From Branchiostoma floridae (lineage: Eukaryota > Chordata > Leptocardii > Amphioxiformes > Branchiostomatidae): a stretch of DNA of 64,000 nucleotides. Where the stretch lies: positions 5,164,626 to 5,228,625 of the forward strand of contig NC_049990.1 in the NCBI RefSeq assembly GCF_000003815.2, written 5' to 3'. This document shows positions 53,185 through 63,902 of this stretch, one piece after another (the stretch's first letter is position 1; each line of letters begins with the position of its first letter). A model generated the notes under the pieces. That model was not told the origin of the DNA. It saw only the letters and a program-made list of their open reading frames with translations, and searched no databases. Position numbers and translations under genes: made by a program.

Positions 53185-56100
53185 CCCTCCAGTGTTTTGT
53201 GAACTACTGTGTGGCACGAATGCACAGCTGAACGACAAGCAAACGAAGGCGACAAAATGGATCAACCAAAAGACGCCGGACAAGCGAACGACCCTTCCAA
53301 GGTAGAACCTGCACCAACAAAACCTAATGAAGGACCTACAACCAATAAGCCTAACGAGAACAATGGTCCTGTTAAGCCAAAGAATGAACCTGCAACTGCA
53401 AAGCCAAACGATGCACCTGCTGCCATGAATCCTAAGGACCAACCTGCATCAACAAAACCTACGGATGAGCCTGCAAATACTAAGCCTAACGGGGACCTTG
53501 CAACCTCAAAACCTAAAGAGGATCCCAAAACAACCAAACCTAAGGAGGATCCTACAACACCCGCAACTGCACCCGTAGAGAACCCTGCGCCAACTACACC
53601 CGTAGAGAACCCTGCGACAACTACACCCGCAAGTAATCCTACTCCGACTACACCCGCAAGTAATCCTACTCCGACTACACCCGCAAGTAATCCTACTCCG
53701 ACTACACCCGCAAGTAATCCTACTCCGACTACACCCGCAAGTAATCCCGCACCAACTACACCCGCAAGTAATCCTGCACCAACTACACCCGCAAGTAATT
53801 CTGCACCAACTACACCCGCAAGTAATCCTACTCCGACTACACCCGCAAGTAATCCTGCACCAACTGCACCCACAAGTAATCCTACTCCAACTACACCCGC
53901 AGACAAGCCTGCACCAACTACACCTGCAGACAAGCCTGCACCAACTGCACCAATTGAACCAACTGCACCCGCAGACAAGCCTATACCAACTGAACCAACA
54001 AACAAGCCTGCGTCAACTGCACCCGCAGACAAGCCTACACCAACTGCACCAACAGGCAAGCCTGCCCCGACTGCACCCGTAGACAAGCCTGCAGCAACTG
54101 CACCAACAGACAAGCCTGCGCGAACTGCACCAACAGACAAGCCTGAGCCAACTGCACCAACAGACAAGCCTGCACCAACTGCACCAACAGACAAGCCTGC
54201 ACCAACGGCACCAACAGACAAGCCTGCGCCGACTGCACCAGCGGACAAGCCTGCGCCAACTACACCAACAGACAAGCCTGCGCCAACTGCACCAACAGAC
54301 AAGCCTGCGCCAACTGCACCAGCGGACAAGCCTGCGCCAACTGCACCAACAGATAAGCCCGTGCCAACTGCACCAGCGGACAAGCCCGCGCCAACTGCAC
54401 CCGTAGACAAGCCTGCGCCAACTGCACCAACAGACAAACCTGCGCCAACTGCACCAACAGACGAGCCTGTGTCAACTGCACCAGCGGACAAGCCTGCGAC
54501 AACTACACCAACAGACAAGCCTGCGCCAACTGCACCCGCAAACAAGCCTGCGCCAATTGCACCCGCAGACAAGCCTGCACCAACTACACCCGCAGACAAG
54601 CCTGCACCAACTACACCCGCAGACAAGCCTGCGCCAACTGCACCAACAGACAAGCCTGCGCCAACTGCACCAACAGACAAGCCTGCGCCAACTGCACCAG
54701 CGGACAAGCCTGCGCCAACTGCACCAGCGGACAAGCCTGCGCCAACTGCACCAACAGACAAGCCTGCGCCAACTGCACCAACAGACGAGCCTGCGCCAAC
54801 TGCACCAGCGGACAAGCCTGCGCCAACTGCACCAACAGACAAGCCTGCGCCGACTGCACCAGCGGACAAGCCTGCGCCAACTGCACCAACAGACAAGCCT
54901 GGGCCAACTGCACCAGCGGACAAGCCTGCACCAACTGCACCCGCAAGTACTCCTGTACTAGCTGCACCCGTAGATAAGCCTGCGCCAACTGCACCAACAG
55001 ACAAGCCTGCTCCAACTGCACCAGCGGACAAGCCTGCGCCAACTGCACCAACAGACAAGCCTGCGCCAACTGCACCAGCGGACAAGCCTGCGCCAACTGC
55101 ACCTGTAGACAAGCCTGCATCAACTGCACCCGCAGACAAGCCTGCGCCAACTGCACCAACAGACGAGCCTGCGCCAACTGCACCAACAGACAAGCCTGCG
55201 CCAACTGCACCAGCGGACAAGCCTGCACCAGCTGCACCAGCGAACGAGCCTACCCCGACTGCACCCGTAGACAAGCCTGCGCCAACTGCACCATTAGACA
55301 AGCCTGCGCCAACTGCACCAACAGACAAGACTGCGCCAAATGCACCAACAGACAAGACTGCGCCAACTGCACCAACAGACGAGCCTGCGCCAACTGCACC
55401 AGCGGACAAGCCTTCGCCAACTGCACCAACAGACAAGCCTGCGCCAACTGCACCAACAGACAAGCCTGCGCCAACTGCACCAACAGACAAGCCTGCGCCA
55501 ACTGCACCAACAGACAAGCCTGCGCCAACTGCACCAGCGGACAAGCCTACCCCGACTGCACCCGCAGACAAGCCTGCACCAACTACACCCGCAGACAAGC
55601 CTGCACCAACTGCACCGACTGCACCAGAAGACAGCCCTGCGCCAGAGCCTACAATTACAAAGCCTGCGGCAGAGCCTGTGACTACAAAGCCCAAGACAGA
55701 GCCTGCAACTACAAAGTCCACGACAGAGCCTGCACTTGCAAAGCCAAAGGCAGGGTCTGCACCTGAAAAGGCTAAAGACGAAGCTGGTCCCGCGAAACCA
55801 GATGATAAACTGAAGAAAGAGGTGGGCACTCCTACGAAGGAGAAGGCACAGAAGAAAACGGAAACAGTGAAACCTTCGAGCGATCGAAAGACTCTTTCAA
55901 CTGTTCCGGAAGAAACCGAGGGGAAGAATCTCGAAACCGACTCTAAAGACAAAGTGACAGAGCCAAAAGAAACGGCGACGGACCCGAATGACACCGAAAA
56001 GAAAGTCCTCTCTACAGATCCCGAAACGAAGGCAGAAAAGACACCGCAGACAGAGCCTCCGGAAACAAATGAGAAGAGTACCGAAACAAAAAGCGATCCT

Positions 56101-56305
56101 AAAGACAACAAAACATCGTCTACAGTGCCACCGGAAAAAACTAACGCCGAAATCGAAACATCACCCAAATCGGAGGAGAAAGATGCCAAGGCCACGGCAA
56201 CGGAGCCTGCCATCACCGATAACAAAGATTTAGGTACAGAGAAGGCACAGCCGGATTCAAAGGACATAGCCACTACCAGTGACCAGAAGGATGCCAAGAA
56301 TCTCA
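53185..56305 (+). CDS. G5 exon with about 73-copy PAPTAP[TA]DK array
   Basis: Acceptor CATATTTCAG at 53184, ATG at 53257, donor CTCA/GTAAGT at 56305/56306 (phase 1). After a Lys/Pro/Thr/Asn lead-in, about ten ASNP[TA]PTTP units (about 53625-53890) give way to 27-bp units [18 protein letters not shown] up to about 55625, then a Lys/Glu/Thr-rich tail. The lead-in and array have almost no hydrophobic residues, so an extended disordered chain is expected. Confidence 0.85.
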
Positions 56306-59300
56306 GTAAGTTATTAGTCATATTTCTATGGTACATTGGATAGTATGCTGATTTGGGGTTCTCAAAATGTGTAATTAAGTACAAATCAAGAAACAATTTA
56401 GTATACCCTAAGCGTTCTAGCGAATGTCATTGGCCCGAAAAGGTGCTTTGAATGTCCACACGTCCAAAGTATTTCTCATAGACGACGCGGTTTCTCCTTG
56501 TATGTCGCAGTGGCATAGTGTTGGGAGCGATTGAATAGGGGTTGTCATTTTATTTATGTATCCCTATGCGGCAAACATAAGACATGATTTCATGAATTTT
56601 CATCATTTTTCTATCACCATTTCTCTGACAGACACCACACCAGAAGCGAAAGTAGCAAAGACTACCGAGCCTGAGGTTGAAGAAAAACCCGACAAACAGA
56701 CCAATACAGACAAGACCGGGACGGATTCCAAAGAGACAGCGACAGATGCCCCTGTTGGCATACCAAAGCAAACCGAAACAAAGGCAGAAGAAAAAGAAGG
56801 AAAGCAGACGGGAACAGAACCGATCGTCAAAGCAGATAAAGGAACCGCAATGGATCCACAAAAAGAAAAGAAGAAGATCGCTACCGAGAAAGAACCTAAG
56901 GATGACAAGGCAGCAGAAACAGAGAAGGAAGTGAAGGTAGCAAAGACTACCGAACCTGAAGTTGAAGAAAAACCCGACAAACTGACCGCCACAGACAAGA
57001 CCGGGACGGATTCTAAAGCTACAGAGACAGTTGCCCCTGTTGGTTTACCCAAGCAAACCGAAACAGAGGCAGAAGAAAAAGAAGGAAAGCAGACGGGCAC
57101 AGAACCGATCCTAAAAGAAGATAAAGGAACCGGAATGGAGTTACAAAAGGATAAGAAGATGATCGCTACCGAGAAAGAAGCTAAGGATGAGAAGTCAGCA
57201 GAAACAGATAAGGAAGTGAAGGTAGCAAAGACTACTGAGCCTGAGGTTGAAGAAAAACCCGATAAACTGACCGCCACAGACAAGACCGGGACGGATTCTA
57301 AAGCTACGGAGACAGTTGCCCATGTTGCAATACCGAAGCAAACCGAAACAGAGGTGGAAGAAAAAGAAGGAAAACAGACAGGAACAGACCCGATCCTAAA
57401 AACAGATAAAGGTACCACAATGGAGTTACCAAAGGAAAAGAAGATGATCGCTACTGACAAGGAAGCCAAAGACGAAAAGGCAGCAGAAACAGAAAAGGAA
57501 GTAAAGAATGAAAAGTATCTGGAAACAGACCTGGATGAAGTTCTGAAGAAAGACCTGGCAACGGTTAAGAAGGAAGTTGCACAAAAGGGTGTGGAAACGG
57601 ATAAAACGCCTACCGAAAATGTTGACACATCTACTGAAGTGGAGGAGAAAGTTGCAAAGGTGGAAGAAACAGATAAGAGGAAGACCGAAGACGTCGAAAC
57701 CGCTACGGAGAAGGAGGAGAAGGTTGTGAAGGATGCAGAGACAGTCATGCCAGAGAAAGAGGCAAAAACTAATGCAACAGACAAGATAGAAAGCTCACTC
57801 AAGGAAATCATGGTCGAAAAGGAAAAGGAGGATAACGGCACACAGACAACTCAGGAGTCGTCCGAAAAGGTCTTAGAGACCCTCAAGGAAGAGAAGGACG
57901 AGAAGACGTCTTCAACTGACAAGGAGGAGAAAATGCCAAAGACCACCGAAACCGACAAAGAGGAGAAGGATGCAAAACAGATCAGTGTCAAAATCGAGGT
58001 TACAAAGGTGGACCAAGGGACAGATGCAAAGAAAGATACTGAAGATGAAAAGTGCATCGAAACCGACGCGAAAGAGAAGCAAACGACAGTCGTGTATCAA
58101 ACAGAAGCGGAAAGTAAGGAACAGAAGACCCTGGTCACAGAGAAAAGGGAGGTCGTACAGAAGCAGATTCTTACCGACCAAGTGGCCACAGCCGACGCAA
58201 AAACCATCACAGAGGCTTCTATAAAAGGCGACAAGGACTTGGCCACCACGGGATTTGGTACAACAAGTCAAGGCTCACAAACTCATAAAGACGTCACAGA
58301 TAAGACGATTGCTGTCATGAAAGATTTGCAGAACAAGCTATTCGGAACAGACCTCATTGCTGTAAGCGCAGGAGAGACACAGACAGAGATCGTTGAAATT
58401 ACATCATCTGAAAGTCAAACAGTAAAGGTGGTTGGTGAAGAGAAGGATATTGAAACCGAAACGGCTGAAGTTAAAGAGAAGAGCATAAAGAACATGGAGA
58501 CGGACATGGTTGCTGTTCAGGACAGTGGAACTCAGAAATCAGGACCTCACGTGGATCCAAAAGGCACTCAGACTGATGTTGTTGAAAAGGAGGAAGTCAA
58601 GGTGGTGGATTACGTCGCTAAGGATATCCAAACAGACATCATTAAGAAGGTTGGCAAGAAGACTGGTACTCCAGGCGGCAGGCCACGTGATTACGCAGAC
58701 ACCCTGGTACAGACTGAAGAATGGACTCCTGAGAAACAAGAAGAAAAGGTCGACAAGGAGAACGCTACAGATGTCCAGCCTGCACCAGAACGTGAGACAG
58801 AGGTAAAGATCATGGAGACAGACAAAGCAATCAAAGTGAGCAAGAAAACAGGCACCAAGGTAAGAAGCCTTGCGTACGTGGAGTTCAGAAGCAGCTGCAT
58901 CCAAACCGACGAAGAGGCTGTTGAAGAAAAGGTGTCTGCAGCTATCGGCATTCAAACAGACGTCGTCAAAGAAGAAACTCCGGCTGAGCCTGTGATGGTT
59001 ACCATAACTGTTGGATGCCAGACAGACACTGTAGTTGAGAAAGAAGAGGCCAAACCGGTCACCAAAGAAGAGCCAAAAGAGATCAAGAAAGAATCGGCAA
59101 GTGTAGCCATTCAAACAGACGTCATCAAAGAAGAGAAGGAAGAAGTAACGACAAAGCCTGTTACAGTCACCATCACTGTTGGCTGTCAGACACTGCAAGA
59201 AGAAGTAAAAGAGAAAGTGGCAGTCGAGATGGGCTCCGTTAATGTCCAGACTGACGTTACCGGCTCTGACATTGACGGTTGGCAGACAAGTGAAAGTGAG

Positions 59301-59508
59301 AGTGCCGTACAGGAGCAAAAGGCGATCACAACAAGCGTGTCCTCACAAACCATGAGCAAGGTGATGAGTAGCCAATCGTCGCAGTTCTCACCTACGACCT
59401 ACACCATTGGTGTGCAGTTTGGGCCCAAACAGGTTCGTATATATTTATCTATCTACATGTATCTATCTATCTATCTAATAAAAAAGTATCTATCTATCTA
59501 TCTATCCA

Positions 59509-59565
<57 letters not shown>

Positions 59566-59574
59566 ACCTACATG

Positions 59575-59609
<35 letters not shown>

Positions 59610-59610
59610 T

Positions 59611-59648
<38 letters not shown>

Positions 59649-62600
59649 CATGTGTGTGTGTGTGTGTTAGTGTTATTAAAAAAGTCATATCAAAACTAAG
59701 GTCATGACAGCATACAGTATACATTGTATCTTGAACATCCTTTAGCATCTTACATCTTAGCTAGCATTTCTGTCTTTGATGTTCAATGTGAAAGCTTATA
59801 AATAAAGTGTTGCTTTGAAAAATTGCATTGCTAGCCTAGATAATACGGATATTGTCATGTGTAATTACTTCGAATTCTTCTTCGTACATATCTCTCGAGA
59901 AACGAAAATGAACTGTAACAATATATTCCACATTACCGACTCTGCAGGACTCGTTCAGCACCCAGACCAAAGCTCTAGAGACCATATCCCGAAGCTTGGA
60001 GACTCTGAAGGACAGAAAGATGTACCGAAGCATGGAGACCATCAAACGGGAGCCTAGCAAAGAAGAGGTCAAACCCCGACCCGTTTCCCCATGCGAGAGC
60101 AATACGTGAGTACGCGAATATTTCCCAACAATCATGTGTTTAAGAACCTCCTCAATGTATACTCGATGACGTAACGCATTACAGGTGACTTATAACCACC
60201 GAATAAGCAGCTGAGTGAGTGAAGGGCAGGATTTATGTTGCTGGTAACGACGTGGAAAAGCCGGTCATTAACCCGATGGCATACTTGTAATGTTGTAGCC
60301 GTATAACCAATAGAAGTGAATGTTTTGCCCACACAGCTTGTATTTAAGATCATAACAATATTGACTGTATTTTGTTTAATTATGATTATTGCGCAATTCA
60401 ATATGTGACATGATGTTGCAGAGATGAAGAGGTGATAACAGTACCACCTCAACCTACTCCAGTGACGCCTACTTACATCATCATTCCTACGTCACCGCAA
60501 CCGTGCTGGCCATGGACTGTACCGTGAGTTCAATATGTTACATTACTTACGACAGTATAGGTCCCCTGCTAATGGAACAGTCCAAGCCTGCGGTCTGAGC
60601 CCTCTGGTGTACAGGGAGTCAGTCTGGTTCTAGAGACTCAATGCAAATACAACGTGGTTCTGTTACGTCTGTTTGTGTGTACTTGATTATTGACTGGCAG
60701 CAAAGGGATAGAGGTCAGTTTACATGACAACGGAATAGAAATACATGTAGTTATTGCATGCACGAGCATGCCTTTGTATGTATCAATGCTGTTAAGATGG
60801 TTATACATTTATGCAATTGAATCACCGTGAGCCGACCGCAGCTAATGTTTTCACGTTCACGTAATAATAGTATGGACTAGTTTTTGTTTATTTCCCTCAC
60901 CTTGTTTTGACTCTAGATTGAGATTTATTCAGTTTATGACAAACCTACTAGTTACTAACTTGCCAGGGCAGTGAATTCGTTCGTAGCTTAGTCTGAACAA
61001 TCAGAGAAAAAAACGTAACGGTCACATCAGACAAAAATAACAGTAGATCTTTATTTCCATGTTCTTAGCCACACGGGCTAAATGCAGTGATTCGGTTAGA
61101 TACTGATACAAGTAGTGTAAAATAACAAGTCTTTGTCTCCTGTCATCAAAGTGTTACATTGTGACTATATCTAAATAAATGGCCATGACCGCTAAGATAT
61201 TCCTTCTCATAAACAGAACACAGTACGAGAGTTATTCCTCCGAAGCTTCTTCTCTCGATGACGACAGCTGGGAACGACGCTCCCCTCCCCGGGAAGAGGT
61301 AGTTCCTGTACAGAAACCTGCCGCAGAGAAGGAGTACTGCTATGGGTGTCAGTGTGAGTTCGACATCAACGACAAGCAGATCAACTACAACGGTTACTAC
61401 TATCACGAGATATGCATCCCGTAAGTTTTATCTGATACAAAACATCTAACAATGCTTTATGTTCTACCTTCCCTCAAAACATGTACTAAGGTTCTACTGA
61501 GATTCAGACTTCAACTGTTGACTCCAAGTTTGCCATGTTTCCTTTCTTACTTGAAGTTTTCTTCTTCTGCCATTTTTCAAAAATATGGGGACATAAGTGG
61601 CAATACCAATTTGTTTTCGGTAACCCCTTTACAAAATCGTGCTATTTCCAGTCAAATGATAAGATTATAATAACTTACTACTTCTAGAAACAATATGTCT
61701 GTACATACGTTATGAAGTAAGTCGGTCTTGATGCAAGGAATTACCATTGTGATGCCATTGGATAGGCACTTATAGTAGAGAAATACATCTATGCTTACAT
61801 TGTATACTTGGTATTATATGACACAAAATTTAACATTTGGTCACCAAACAGGAGGAAGTACTGCCATGCCTGCGAGGAACCCTTCCAGAATGACGACAAG
61901 AGAATCTACCACAATGGACTACTCTTTCACGACAAATGCATGTAGGTTTTGCTGTGTTGTGTTGTTGTTGTTGTTGTCATTTTCTGGTTCTTAGGCCATG
62001 TTGATTTGATTATATGAATAACATCCTCTGGGAATCTAAAAACTGATGCGAGCGTGCGAATAACAAAAGTTTGCCTCTATTATGAAATCGAAGTGGTGAG
62101 GAAGATTGAACATATGACTGAACAGTCAGAATATAGTTTACCAAACAATAAATACTTCATTTTTGTTCTTTCAAATCTTCTTTGACCATGTAGTGTTCTA
62201 TGACATTAGTATACGTTCTCCAATATCTGTTTTTGCAATCCGCGGCATATATTTGCTGCTTTGTACGATTTGAAGTATGGTTGAAGCCTTTTTTTAAACG
62301 GCCGCAAATTGATGCGCGCGCGGACGTCATCCATATAATCAAATCAAAATGGCCTTAGTTTGCATTTGACGGCCATCGGCAATGTTACGTATGTTCGTAT
62401 ATGGGCTTAACTGTGATGCAAAAAAAGCAGTCTGTTACATAGTCTCATCATTGGATGAACAGTTCCTCGACTATCCCATGTATTTCTTCGTACACAGGGT
62501 TTTGGTGGACGTAAAGGAGACAACGGTAGAGAAGGGAGTTGAAGTCTGTTCCGGATGTTCTCTTCCAATCAAGGAAGACGAGACGACTGTCATGTATAAT

Positions 62601-63902
62601 GGCTACGAGTTCCACCAGACATGCCTGTAAGTTTGTTTGTTTTTTCAAGATAATTTTTATTGATTTTCAAAGAACATAAAACACATACAAACACATGTAT
62701 GGCACGTAAATCATAAACAGAATGACACGTGAAAAACTATAGAACTGATGATTGAAATAAAGTGAAGGTGGTGACAAATGAAGTTCTAGAAGTTGTACCC
62801 CCAATTACCATTGCAGCAATACATAATGTATAAGACATATCAAATTAAATGCCTGTAACTTTTGGTTAGGAACGATAGATCACATAGTGTATAACCAACG
62901 TAGCGTCCTCCGTTTATCGCCATTCTGTGCAAATCTACCAGCACAGATGGGCTTTCACGCTACGGTGAGAGTAATTGTCACGATTCTCCGTTTACAAGGT
63001 TAGAACAACGATCGTATGAAACCTTGGCTATTACGCACTTTTACAGTCAACTGGATATAAACCGATGTGAGGCGTGCAAACAACCGATGGATGACAACGA
63101 CCAAGTGATCACCTACAACGGGGTGGACATTCACGACTACTGCATCCCGTGAGTCATACTCTCAGTCTGATTTTGTTACGAGAAGCAGCCACGTTGCCCA
63201 AACTTGATGGTTGCTAATCATCAGAATTTGACGTCGAGATGTACTTTTCTCAGTTGCAACAGAGCTAATGACTACGTTCGTTGTGGGTTGCTTGAATGCA
63301 ACAAACTTCTAAATACTCTTGTACAGCTTTCATTATCTTGCCCCTCTCAAAAATTTAAGCCATTCATGTTATATCATAATATGATTCGTACCTTCATTTC
63401 AGATTACTGAAAAGCATGATGGCAGGGTAAGTTCCTTATTTGTCGTCAAAAGATAGATGATTTGTATAAAAGAATCTACGTCGATAGCTAGTACTTTACC
63501 TCGTAACCTTAGAACTTCGCATGCATTGATGTTTATATATAAGTTGACTTTTACGATGTAAATTAAAGAAACACTCAGTATCAAAGACTTATAGAAACTT
63601 ATAGTAACAGACTATTATCAGTATCGAAGACTAAAAGGAAACATATAGTGACAGACTTGCAAAGTCGCTGGATCATCATTGTTGCAAATGTATCTTCACT
63701 CTCTTTATGCATCTAGACTATAATTAGTTGTTGTTCATTTGCAATTAGCCAACAGACACGAATTTGCAATAAACTTTGTCTTCATGATCTACCTATGAAT
63801 GATATTTTTCAGAGGAGAAAATGGAAATGTGAATGGAAATGGAAATGTGAATGGAAATGGGTCTGTCAGCCCAAGCCAGTATCCGGATTGCCAGATATGC
63901 GG
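53257..63902 (+). CDS. G5: giant repeat scaffold with LC8-like motif array and half-LIM fingers (partial)
   Basis: Ten exons join in frame: 53257-56305, 56632-59432, 59948-60105, 60422-60523, 61217-61420, 61852-61941, 62498-62626, 63047-63148, 63403-63426, 63813-63902; about 2,250 codons so far, continuing past the right edge. Order: about 1,000 residues dominated by DKPAPTAP[TA] repeats; about 930 residues of Lys/Thr/Glu repeats whose C-terminal third has some 15 [GVIAC]QT[DE]-type motifs; a Pro-rich linker; four half-LIM fingers (CYGC..HEIC, CHAC..HDKC, CSGC..HQTC, CEAC..HDYC); a GNVNGN spacer; then YPDCQICG, the opening of a LIM domain. The start MDQPKDAGQ is chosen because an earlier ATG is out of frame. 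No signal peptide. I infer an intracellular multivalent scaffold related to G4 by its half-LIM tail. Confidence 0.8.
53620..55625 (+). repeat. 27-bp coding minisatellite, about 73 units
   Basis: The consensus unit is GACAAGCCTGCGCCAACTGC plus ACCAACA or ACCAGCG. Units are nearly identical in the centre and more diverged at both ends, the pattern of ongoing unequal exchange. The antisense strand is open over the same span purely because of the repeat. Confidence 0.9.
56632..59432 (+). CDS. G5 exon with 96-residue repeats and LC8-like QT array
   Basis: Acceptor TTTCTCTGACAG, donor CAG/GTTCGT; 934 codons. The first 290 residues are three tandem 288-bp units starting [13 protein letters not shown] near 56648, 56936 and 57224, themselves built of 12-residue sub-units with a repeated T-x-[TE]-[DE]. 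From 57834 on, QT motifs appear: GTQTT, GSQTH, ETQTE, ESQTV, GTQTD, DIQTD, LVQTE, CIQTD, GIQTD, GCQTD, AIQTD, GCQTL, NVQTD, GWQTS, SSQTM. The known LC8 core is TQT or [IV]Q[TV], usually followed by an acidic residue; binding here is inferred. Confidence 0.85.
56645..57508 (+). repeat. Three tandem 288-bp coding repeats
   Basis: The spacing between equivalent GTAGCAAAGACTAC sites is 288 bp each time (56.65, 56.94, 57.22 kb). Each unit is 96 residues and keeps the reading frame. Confidence 0.85.
59455..59667 (+). repeat. Compound microsatellite in G5 intron
   Basis: (CTAT)n, (TA)n at 59511-59562, (CTAT)n, (CT)n and (TG)n in succession. The upstream reading frame runs through it by chance; it lies after the donor at 59432. 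Confidence 0.9.
59948..60105 (+). CDS. G5 exon with a further STQTK motif
   Basis: Acceptor ACTCTGCAG, donor AC/GTGAGT. Encodes [20 protein letters not shown], combining an LC8-type STQT with a short heptad-like helix. Confidence 0.8.
60422..60523 (+). CDS. G5 Pro/Thr-rich linker exon
   Basis: Acceptor TGATGTTGCAG, donor CC/GTGAGT. Encodes [19 protein letters not shown] then PCWPWTV. Confidence 0.75.
60530..61200 (+). other. G5 intron
   Basis: No exon or repeat recognised in about 690 bp. Confidence 0.4.
61217..61420 (+). CDS. G5 half-LIM finger exon 1
   Basis: Acceptor CATAAACAG, donor CC/GTAAGT. A Ser/Glu lead-in, then [19 protein letters not shown] and [10 protein letters not shown]-x2-C-x18-H-x2-C, phase-2 introns. 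Confidence 0.85.
61852..61941 (+). CDS. G5 half-LIM finger exon 2
   Basis: Acceptor ACCAAACAG, donor CAT/GTAGGT. Encodes [19 protein letters not shown] then LLFHDKC; 90 nt, phase 2 both sides. Confidence 0.85.
62498..62626 (+). CDS. G5 half-LIM finger exon 3
   Basis: Acceptor CGTACACAG, donor CCT/GTAAGT. Encodes [19 protein letters not shown] then YEFHQTC; phase 2 both sides. Confidence 0.85.
63047..63148 (+). CDS. G5 half-LIM finger exon 4
   Basis: Acceptor TTTTACAG, donor CCC/GTGAGT. Encodes [19 protein letters not shown] then VDIHDYCIP; phase 2 both sides. Confidence 0.85.
63403..63426 (+). CDS. G5 24-nt micro-exon
   Basis: Acceptor TTCATTTCAG, donor AGG/GTAAGT. Encodes LLKSMMAG; keeps phase 2 on both sides, so including or skipping it preserves frame. 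Confidence 0.65.
63813..63902 (+). CDS. G5 exon opening a LIM domain (last in window)
   Basis: Acceptor ATATTTTTCAG, donor CGG/GTAAAC. Encodes [15 protein letters not shown] from an 18-bp coding repeat, then YPDCQICG, the first CxxC of a LIM domain. The equivalent place in G3 reads KCHACR before a split LIM4, so the remaining LIM exons should lie to the right. Confidence 0.8.

Follow-up and report, generated by a model that had tools for sequence, protein, structure and literature searches.

QT dipeptides and a PINCH-like LIM tail in a Branchiostoma floridae gene: a candidate multivalent LC8 array

The window analyzed here comprises 64,000 nucleotides of contig NC_049990.1 of Branchiostoma floridae (assembly GCF_000003815.2, positions 5,164,626 to 5,228,625). 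Towards its end lies a gene on the + strand in which an array of glutamine-threonine (QT) dipeptides, a putative set of docking sites for the dynein light chain LC8 (DYNLL), precedes a tail of LIM domains. Splice sites were picked by eye, all with AG/GT borders and fitting phases, and nine exons between 56632 and 63902 can be joined in consistent phase. Six further exons past the window end, in the adjoining segment L007, lead to a stop codon, giving a model of 1410 residues counted from 56634. An additional proline-rich exon (53203-56305, + strand) has an open frame and a splice donor that joins it in phase to the 56632 exon. It contains repeats followed by T-x-T-[DE] repeats and is a candidate 5' part of the gene, its start codon not being fixed. 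There are also 49 PTAP tetrapeptides in its 1034 residues. PTAP is a TSG101-binding motif, and its abundance here is probably driven by the repeats.

The first of the nine joined exons (56632-59432), delimited by open frame, splice phase and motif counts, starts with K-x-T-x-T-[DE] repeats up to about 57833 and continues with the QT array (57834-59432), which was recognized from motif counts and predicted disorder. The next exon (59948-60105) carries one more site, STQTK, followed by a charged helix; splice phase, a structural model and a paralogue (see below) speak for it. After a linker exon rich in proline (60422-60523, splice phase) come four exons that each encode a half-LIM finger (CxxC-x18-HxxC), at 61217-61420, 61852-61941, 62498-62626 and 63047-63148, all placed by splice phase and sequence. 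A short linker exon (63403-63426, splice phase) and the first exon of the LIM tail (63813-63902) complete the part inside the window. The tail runs on in segment L007 (411-2359), which contains a pair of domains resembling PINCH LIM4-5 and then the stop codon.

Read by eye, the tail consists of the four half-LIM fingers, one more finger and two full LIM domains. Pfam identifies LIM in it with an E value of 1.5e-31 and finds four stretches, and 131 residues match LIM4-5 of PINCH-1 (7d2t) at E 4e-35. The first-pass annotation of this DNA, made from the letters only, had called the protein LIM-tailed; the tail is indeed there and ends in the two domains that resemble PINCH. PINCH (LIMS1) itself is described as five tandem LIM domains with a 12-residue leucine-rich motif after LIM5 (PMC3305314, excerpt). 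The array protein differs in that LIM1-3 and the five-domain tandem are absent from the tail, basic PRKKHRKTKLPK stands in the place of the leucine-rich motif, and the disordered N-terminal part is very long. A canonical PINCH gene was located by eye on the same contig, 60-72 kb past the window end (segments L017-L018), where it apparently has three alternative LIM5 end exons. The array gene may have arisen beside PINCH through a duplication in which LIM1-3 and the leucine-rich C-terminal motif were lost and the disordered part was acquired.

A search of the genome with the array returned, apart from the array itself, a single further locus in three pieces. This paralogue lies on the minus strand, inverted and tail-to-tail with the array gene. 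Its fingers and LIM exons start about 6 kb past the window end, its array is found at about 17-20 kb and its repeat exons reach to about 29 kb. The half-LIM fingers at 61217-63148 share 67-84% of their aligned residues with it, and in the helix exon 34 of 48 aligned residues are the same. Four exons in the repeat region of the paralogue are near-identical. Its array apparently contains a frame change of one base; on either side of this change the reading frames are open and conserved.

The array contains 18 QT dipeptides within 57834-59971, in a single reading frame that crosses a phase-0 intron; together they span 535 residues. Seventeen are located in the 56632-59432 exon, with Q codons at 57843, 58080, 58098, 58278, 58380, 58416, 58569, 58629, 58710, 58902, 58953, 59019, 59112, 59187, 59247, 59283 and 59346; the eighteenth (Q codon 59963) opens the next exon, which explains why the first-pass annotation, with its count of about 16, let the array end at 59971. 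The residue in front of Q is T or I (four sites each), S (three), V or C (two each), K, Y or W (one each), so that 15 of the 18 sites carry an LC8-like residue (T, V, I, S or C) there. Consecutive QT lie between 6 and 79 residues apart. Beginning at 58902, the gaps are 17, 22, 31, 25, 20, 12, 21 and 34 residues, and this C-terminal cluster is the only part with short to middling linkers: assuming a motif of eight residues, its linkers measure 4-26 residues, while those of the N-terminal half are mostly longer.

Chance, or plain composition, was ruled out as the source of the array by shuffling the 533-residue exon segment 2000 times at constant composition. The 17 observed QT compare with a shuffled mean of 5.19 (maximum 14), and for the stricter [TVISC]QT[DE] the nine occurrences compare with a mean of 0.41 (maximum 4), none of the 2000 shuffles reaching nine. 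The stricter motif is also rare in the surroundings. Among 159 six-frame open reading frames (ORFs) of at least 100 amino acids in 144 kb (window plus adjoining DNA; ORFs containing masked runs excluded) it occurs in four, and the three that hold two or more copies are the array gene and both pieces of its paralogue. Recent tandem copying was likewise rejected as the origin of the sites. The 17 QT in this exon are spelled by six different codon pairs, and most of them are therefore not explained by recent copying; by eye just two VTITVGCQT units resemble a recent copy.

The array is predicted to be disordered. A single-sequence AlphaFold2 run on 58341-59432, weak evidence by its nature, returned a mean predicted local distance difference test score (pLDDT) of 35.2, all but 4 of the 364 residues scoring under 50 (360 of 364), and charge-hydropathy analysis points the same way. 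No PDB chain was matched at E values up to 10 and no Pfam family at E values up to 1. For the following exon (59948-60103) a single helix was modeled from residue 2 to 33, with a mean pLDDT of 81.4, again from a single sequence. Both the disorder and the short helix had been anticipated in the first-pass annotation and are borne out by these predictions. The modeled helix may be a candidate self-association element near the array.

The comparison of the two paralogues indicates how the sites have been kept. The homologous stretch of the paralogue contains 17 QT (8, 8 and 1 in its three pieces). Overall, 330 of 495 aligned residues are identical, the silent difference is 0.557 per site (a dS of about 1 by Jukes-Cantor arithmetic) and pN/pS is 0.35. 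At the aligned QT residues, however, 31 of 32 are identical (pN/pS 0.058) versus 299 of 463 elsewhere (0.366; Fisher p 5e-5), and Q or T residues outside the QT sites are identical in 51 of 74 cases. Both residues are kept at 15 of the 16 aligned sites, site 59112, one of the 17 in the exon, having been set aside as it falls in an alignment gap. Circular shifts of the site pattern retain 46% on average and 88% at most, and none of the 532 equals the observed value. The only site that loses its Q in the paralogue is the LC8-unlike KQT at 58080. Four changes affect the residue before Q: two from S to T and one from I to L, all of them LC8-like, and a fourth at the KQT site with the lost Q. By position, identity is clearly highest at 0 (15/16) and +1 (16/16); it is 12/15 at -5, 11/15 at -4, 13/16 at -3, 9/16 at -2, 12/16 at -1 and 10/16 at +2. 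Judged on this one comparison, of the array gene with its paralogue, the QT sites look selected, and their retention between such old paralogues makes a function of the sites likely.

The repeats upstream of the array allow a different explanation. In the same exon, seven more QT (56697-57375) are all KQT; these were ruled out as LC8 sites by the charged residue before Q. The surrounding T[DE] units, whose counts partly reflect repeat copies and are hence not independent, have K at -3 in 19 of 35 cases here and, over six pieces of the paralogue, in 71 of 114; T at -1 is also frequent (15 of 35 and 30 of 114, respectively). At position 0, A, E or G are commonest, Q making up 3 of 35 here and 11 of 114 there. 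By its letters, K-x-T-x-T-[DE] matches the LC8 consensus except that another residue takes the place of Q, and the array may have sprung from such repeats or, conversely, left them behind as its wreck. The array could be a by-product of a low-complexity charged T-x-T-[DE] spacer, with QT as one variant among many and no role in LC8 binding. Units of the form K-x-x-x-T-[DE] abound in the exon as well as in the paralogue, most of them carrying A, E or G where Q would stand, and the near-identical repeat exons of the paralogue fit this explanation as well. It does not account for the preferential retention of QT over other Q and T residues or for the outcome of the circular shifts, and we consider it unlikely.

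As for the ligand, the published rules for LC8 binding (PMC6607443; PMC3078936, excerpt) ask that the residue preceding Q be T, V or I, that the one following it be T or V, and that position +2 be P, D or E. SQT sites are also found among LC8 binders (PMC5746249, Table 1), and GIQVD is a recognized motif class (PMC3078936, excerpt). A position-specific scoring matrix (PSSM) was built from 35 published LC8 binders, with approximate background frequencies; the weak binders of PMC6607443 Table 1 and ASCIZ QT3 were omitted. At a threshold of 7 bits it accepts 9 of the 18 array sites and 10 of the 17 paralogue sites. At 9 bits there are 8 array matches versus a shuffled mean of 0.46 (maximum 3). 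This control leaves out site 57843, the first of the array, which lies at the slice edge, and includes a GTQK site. One upstream sequence, PDKQTNTD at 56688-56711, scores 11.8. In favor of LC8, weak sites of ASCIZ reinforce one another when chained (PMC5963919, excerpt). The genome also encodes a canonical LC8. Its top PDB match is a cytoplasmic dynein light chain 1, from which it differs at 3 of 89 residues (counted from the alignment), and the genome contains another intact copy besides four partial matches. LC8 is therefore the best-supported candidate ligand of the QT sites, and a likely one; the reading that we favor, with moderate confidence and from sequence, is that of a PINCH-related scaffold whose disordered QT array binds LC8 at many weak sites while its tail docks at adhesions.

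Several observations weigh against this reading. Only 6 of the 18 sites carry a TQT or VQT anchor, the others including four IQT, three SQT and two CQT. All three IQT peptides of PMC6607443 (Table 2) are non-binding, and CQT is absent from the published lists of LC8 binders that were examined. Residues as bulky as W or Y in front of Q are expected to fit LC8 badly, yet the GWQT and YQT sites are conserved between the paralogues, and part of the QT conservation may thus serve something other than LC8. The flank from -5 to -2 is no better kept than the remainder (43/60 vs 287/435, p 0.47). The PSSM discriminates poorly: at 7 bits 30 of the 35 binders pass in leave-one-out, but so do 16 of 24 QT-bearing non-viral non-binders (PMC6607443, Tables 1-2; PLK1, DDX1 and a shifted BSN peptide omitted), and for this reason it cannot decide the matter. 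In the single-sequence model the last TQT sits within the helix rather than in an extended stretch, and by eye the helix has a 12-residue repeat and no clear coiled-coil heptad.

RSU1 docks on LIM5 of PINCH (PMC8141872 and PMC7909951, excerpts). Eight of the contacts named in these excerpts were mapped by hand onto the PINCH-1 alignment, beyond which A319 falls. H254, N256 and D295 are identical, F253 to Y, K297 to R and R314 to K are conservative, and two are altered (T280 to F and F307 to I). F253 to Y corresponds to the PINCH-2 state with its weaker RSU1 binding (same excerpts). From the alignment, RSU1 binding by the tail is plausible and no more. In total, the interpretation in the first-pass annotation is partly supported. 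The putative multivalent LC8-type array on a LIM-tailed protein has the backing of motif enrichment, predicted disorder, a canonical LC8 gene and preferential QT retention in the old paralogue. The suggested link to adhesion sites gains support from the likeness of the tail to PINCH LIM4-5 and from the PINCH gene nearby.

The conserved W and Y sites lead to another explanation, in which the QT are genuine docking motifs for another ligand, or for two ligands that include LC8. Within 58341-59432 there are conserved blocks unlike LC8 sites, e.g. GSDIDGWQT, which suggests a second partner besides LC8. The LC8-like residue in front of Q at most of the sites speaks against this explanation, and we know, with no search aimed at one, of no other QT-reading hub with this consensus. 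On balance, this alternative appears quite unlikely. That the paralogue is decaying and the locus unexpressed, so that the likeness reflects shared history only, is most improbable: the apparent frame change in the paralogue array would fit, but the silent difference is accompanied by an overall pN/pS well below one, both sides of the frame change are open and conserved, and the chosen splice sites of the array gene fit in phase through to the stop codon.

In the favored reading of an LC8-binding PINCH relative, LC8 dimers would clamp the QT sites at many weak points and thereby set two chains side by side, in parallel, beside the charged helix. Through its PINCH LIM4-5-like tail the pair would attach to a partner at adhesion sites, for which RSU1 is a plausible candidate, and the long charged and proline-rich N-terminal part would serve as a spacer or brush. 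The result would be a patchily filled, concentration-sensitive assembly, with the C-terminal block better filled than the patchy N-terminal half. In fly ASCIZ, linkers of 6 and 9 residues give uniform complexes, while those of 3, 30 and 41 residues give mixed ones (PMC10046861, excerpt). Since the QT gaps range so widely here and short to middling linkers are confined to the C-terminal cluster, a mixed, partly occupied assembly as in ASCIZ is likelier, and the rigid duplex rod envisaged in the first-pass annotation is weakened by the same irregularity. A bolder extension is that the whole disordered part forms one array in LC8 register, in which the K-x-T-x-T-[DE] units, dozens in number, would be sites of low affinity or relics of sites. 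The LC8 dimers zipping two chains would then outnumber those of every known partner, and LC8 assemblies would be tethered to an integrin adhesion site. We regard this extension as doubtful and quite improbable.

Among known LC8 partners, ASCIZ/ATMIN is similar in its long disordered stretch, its many weak and irregularly spaced LC8 motifs and its attached zinc-binding module. ASCIZ, however, is a zinc-finger transcription factor that controls LC8, with 7 LC8 sites in fly and 11 in human (PMC5963919 and PMC12017986, excerpts), whereas the candidate sites of the array protein number 15-18, their anchors are mixed, and the LIM tail is of the PINCH type. Nup159 shares the order of parts, namely low-complexity repeats, an LC8-type array and a helix: its five LC8 sites lie between FG repeats and a coiled coil and form a stiff rod in negative stain (PMC12017986, excerpt). 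There the rod has been imaged; here the irregularly spaced array is known from sequence alone. The VDKETNTE-type LC8 sites of WWC1-3 (KIBRA; PMC5746249, Table 1) resemble the upstream PDKQTNTD, but two sites are listed per WWC protein and none of the WWC domains is seen in the array protein.

The 11 sites of human ASCIZ were the most of any LC8 partner as of 2018 (PMC5963919, excerpt) and are still the largest number given in a 2025 review (PMC12017986, excerpt). If the favored reading is true, an array of about 15 sites on an adhesion-type LIM protein would take LC8 zippering to a new location and give it a new purpose. It would also offer a second, separately evolved series from which to learn how spacing and anchor quality set occupancy. 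Among the matches listed from an open-licence library, judged by titles and abstract openings, no comparable LC8-array LIM protein was found.

The neighboring DNA contains mobile-element-like sequences, read by eye. In segment L008 an ORF of 1128 residues is LINE-like and includes stretches that resemble an endonuclease and a reverse transcriptase. Segments L011-L016 have ORFs reminiscent of a large DNA transposon or of an integrated element; some of their frames look like capsid, protease and integrase.

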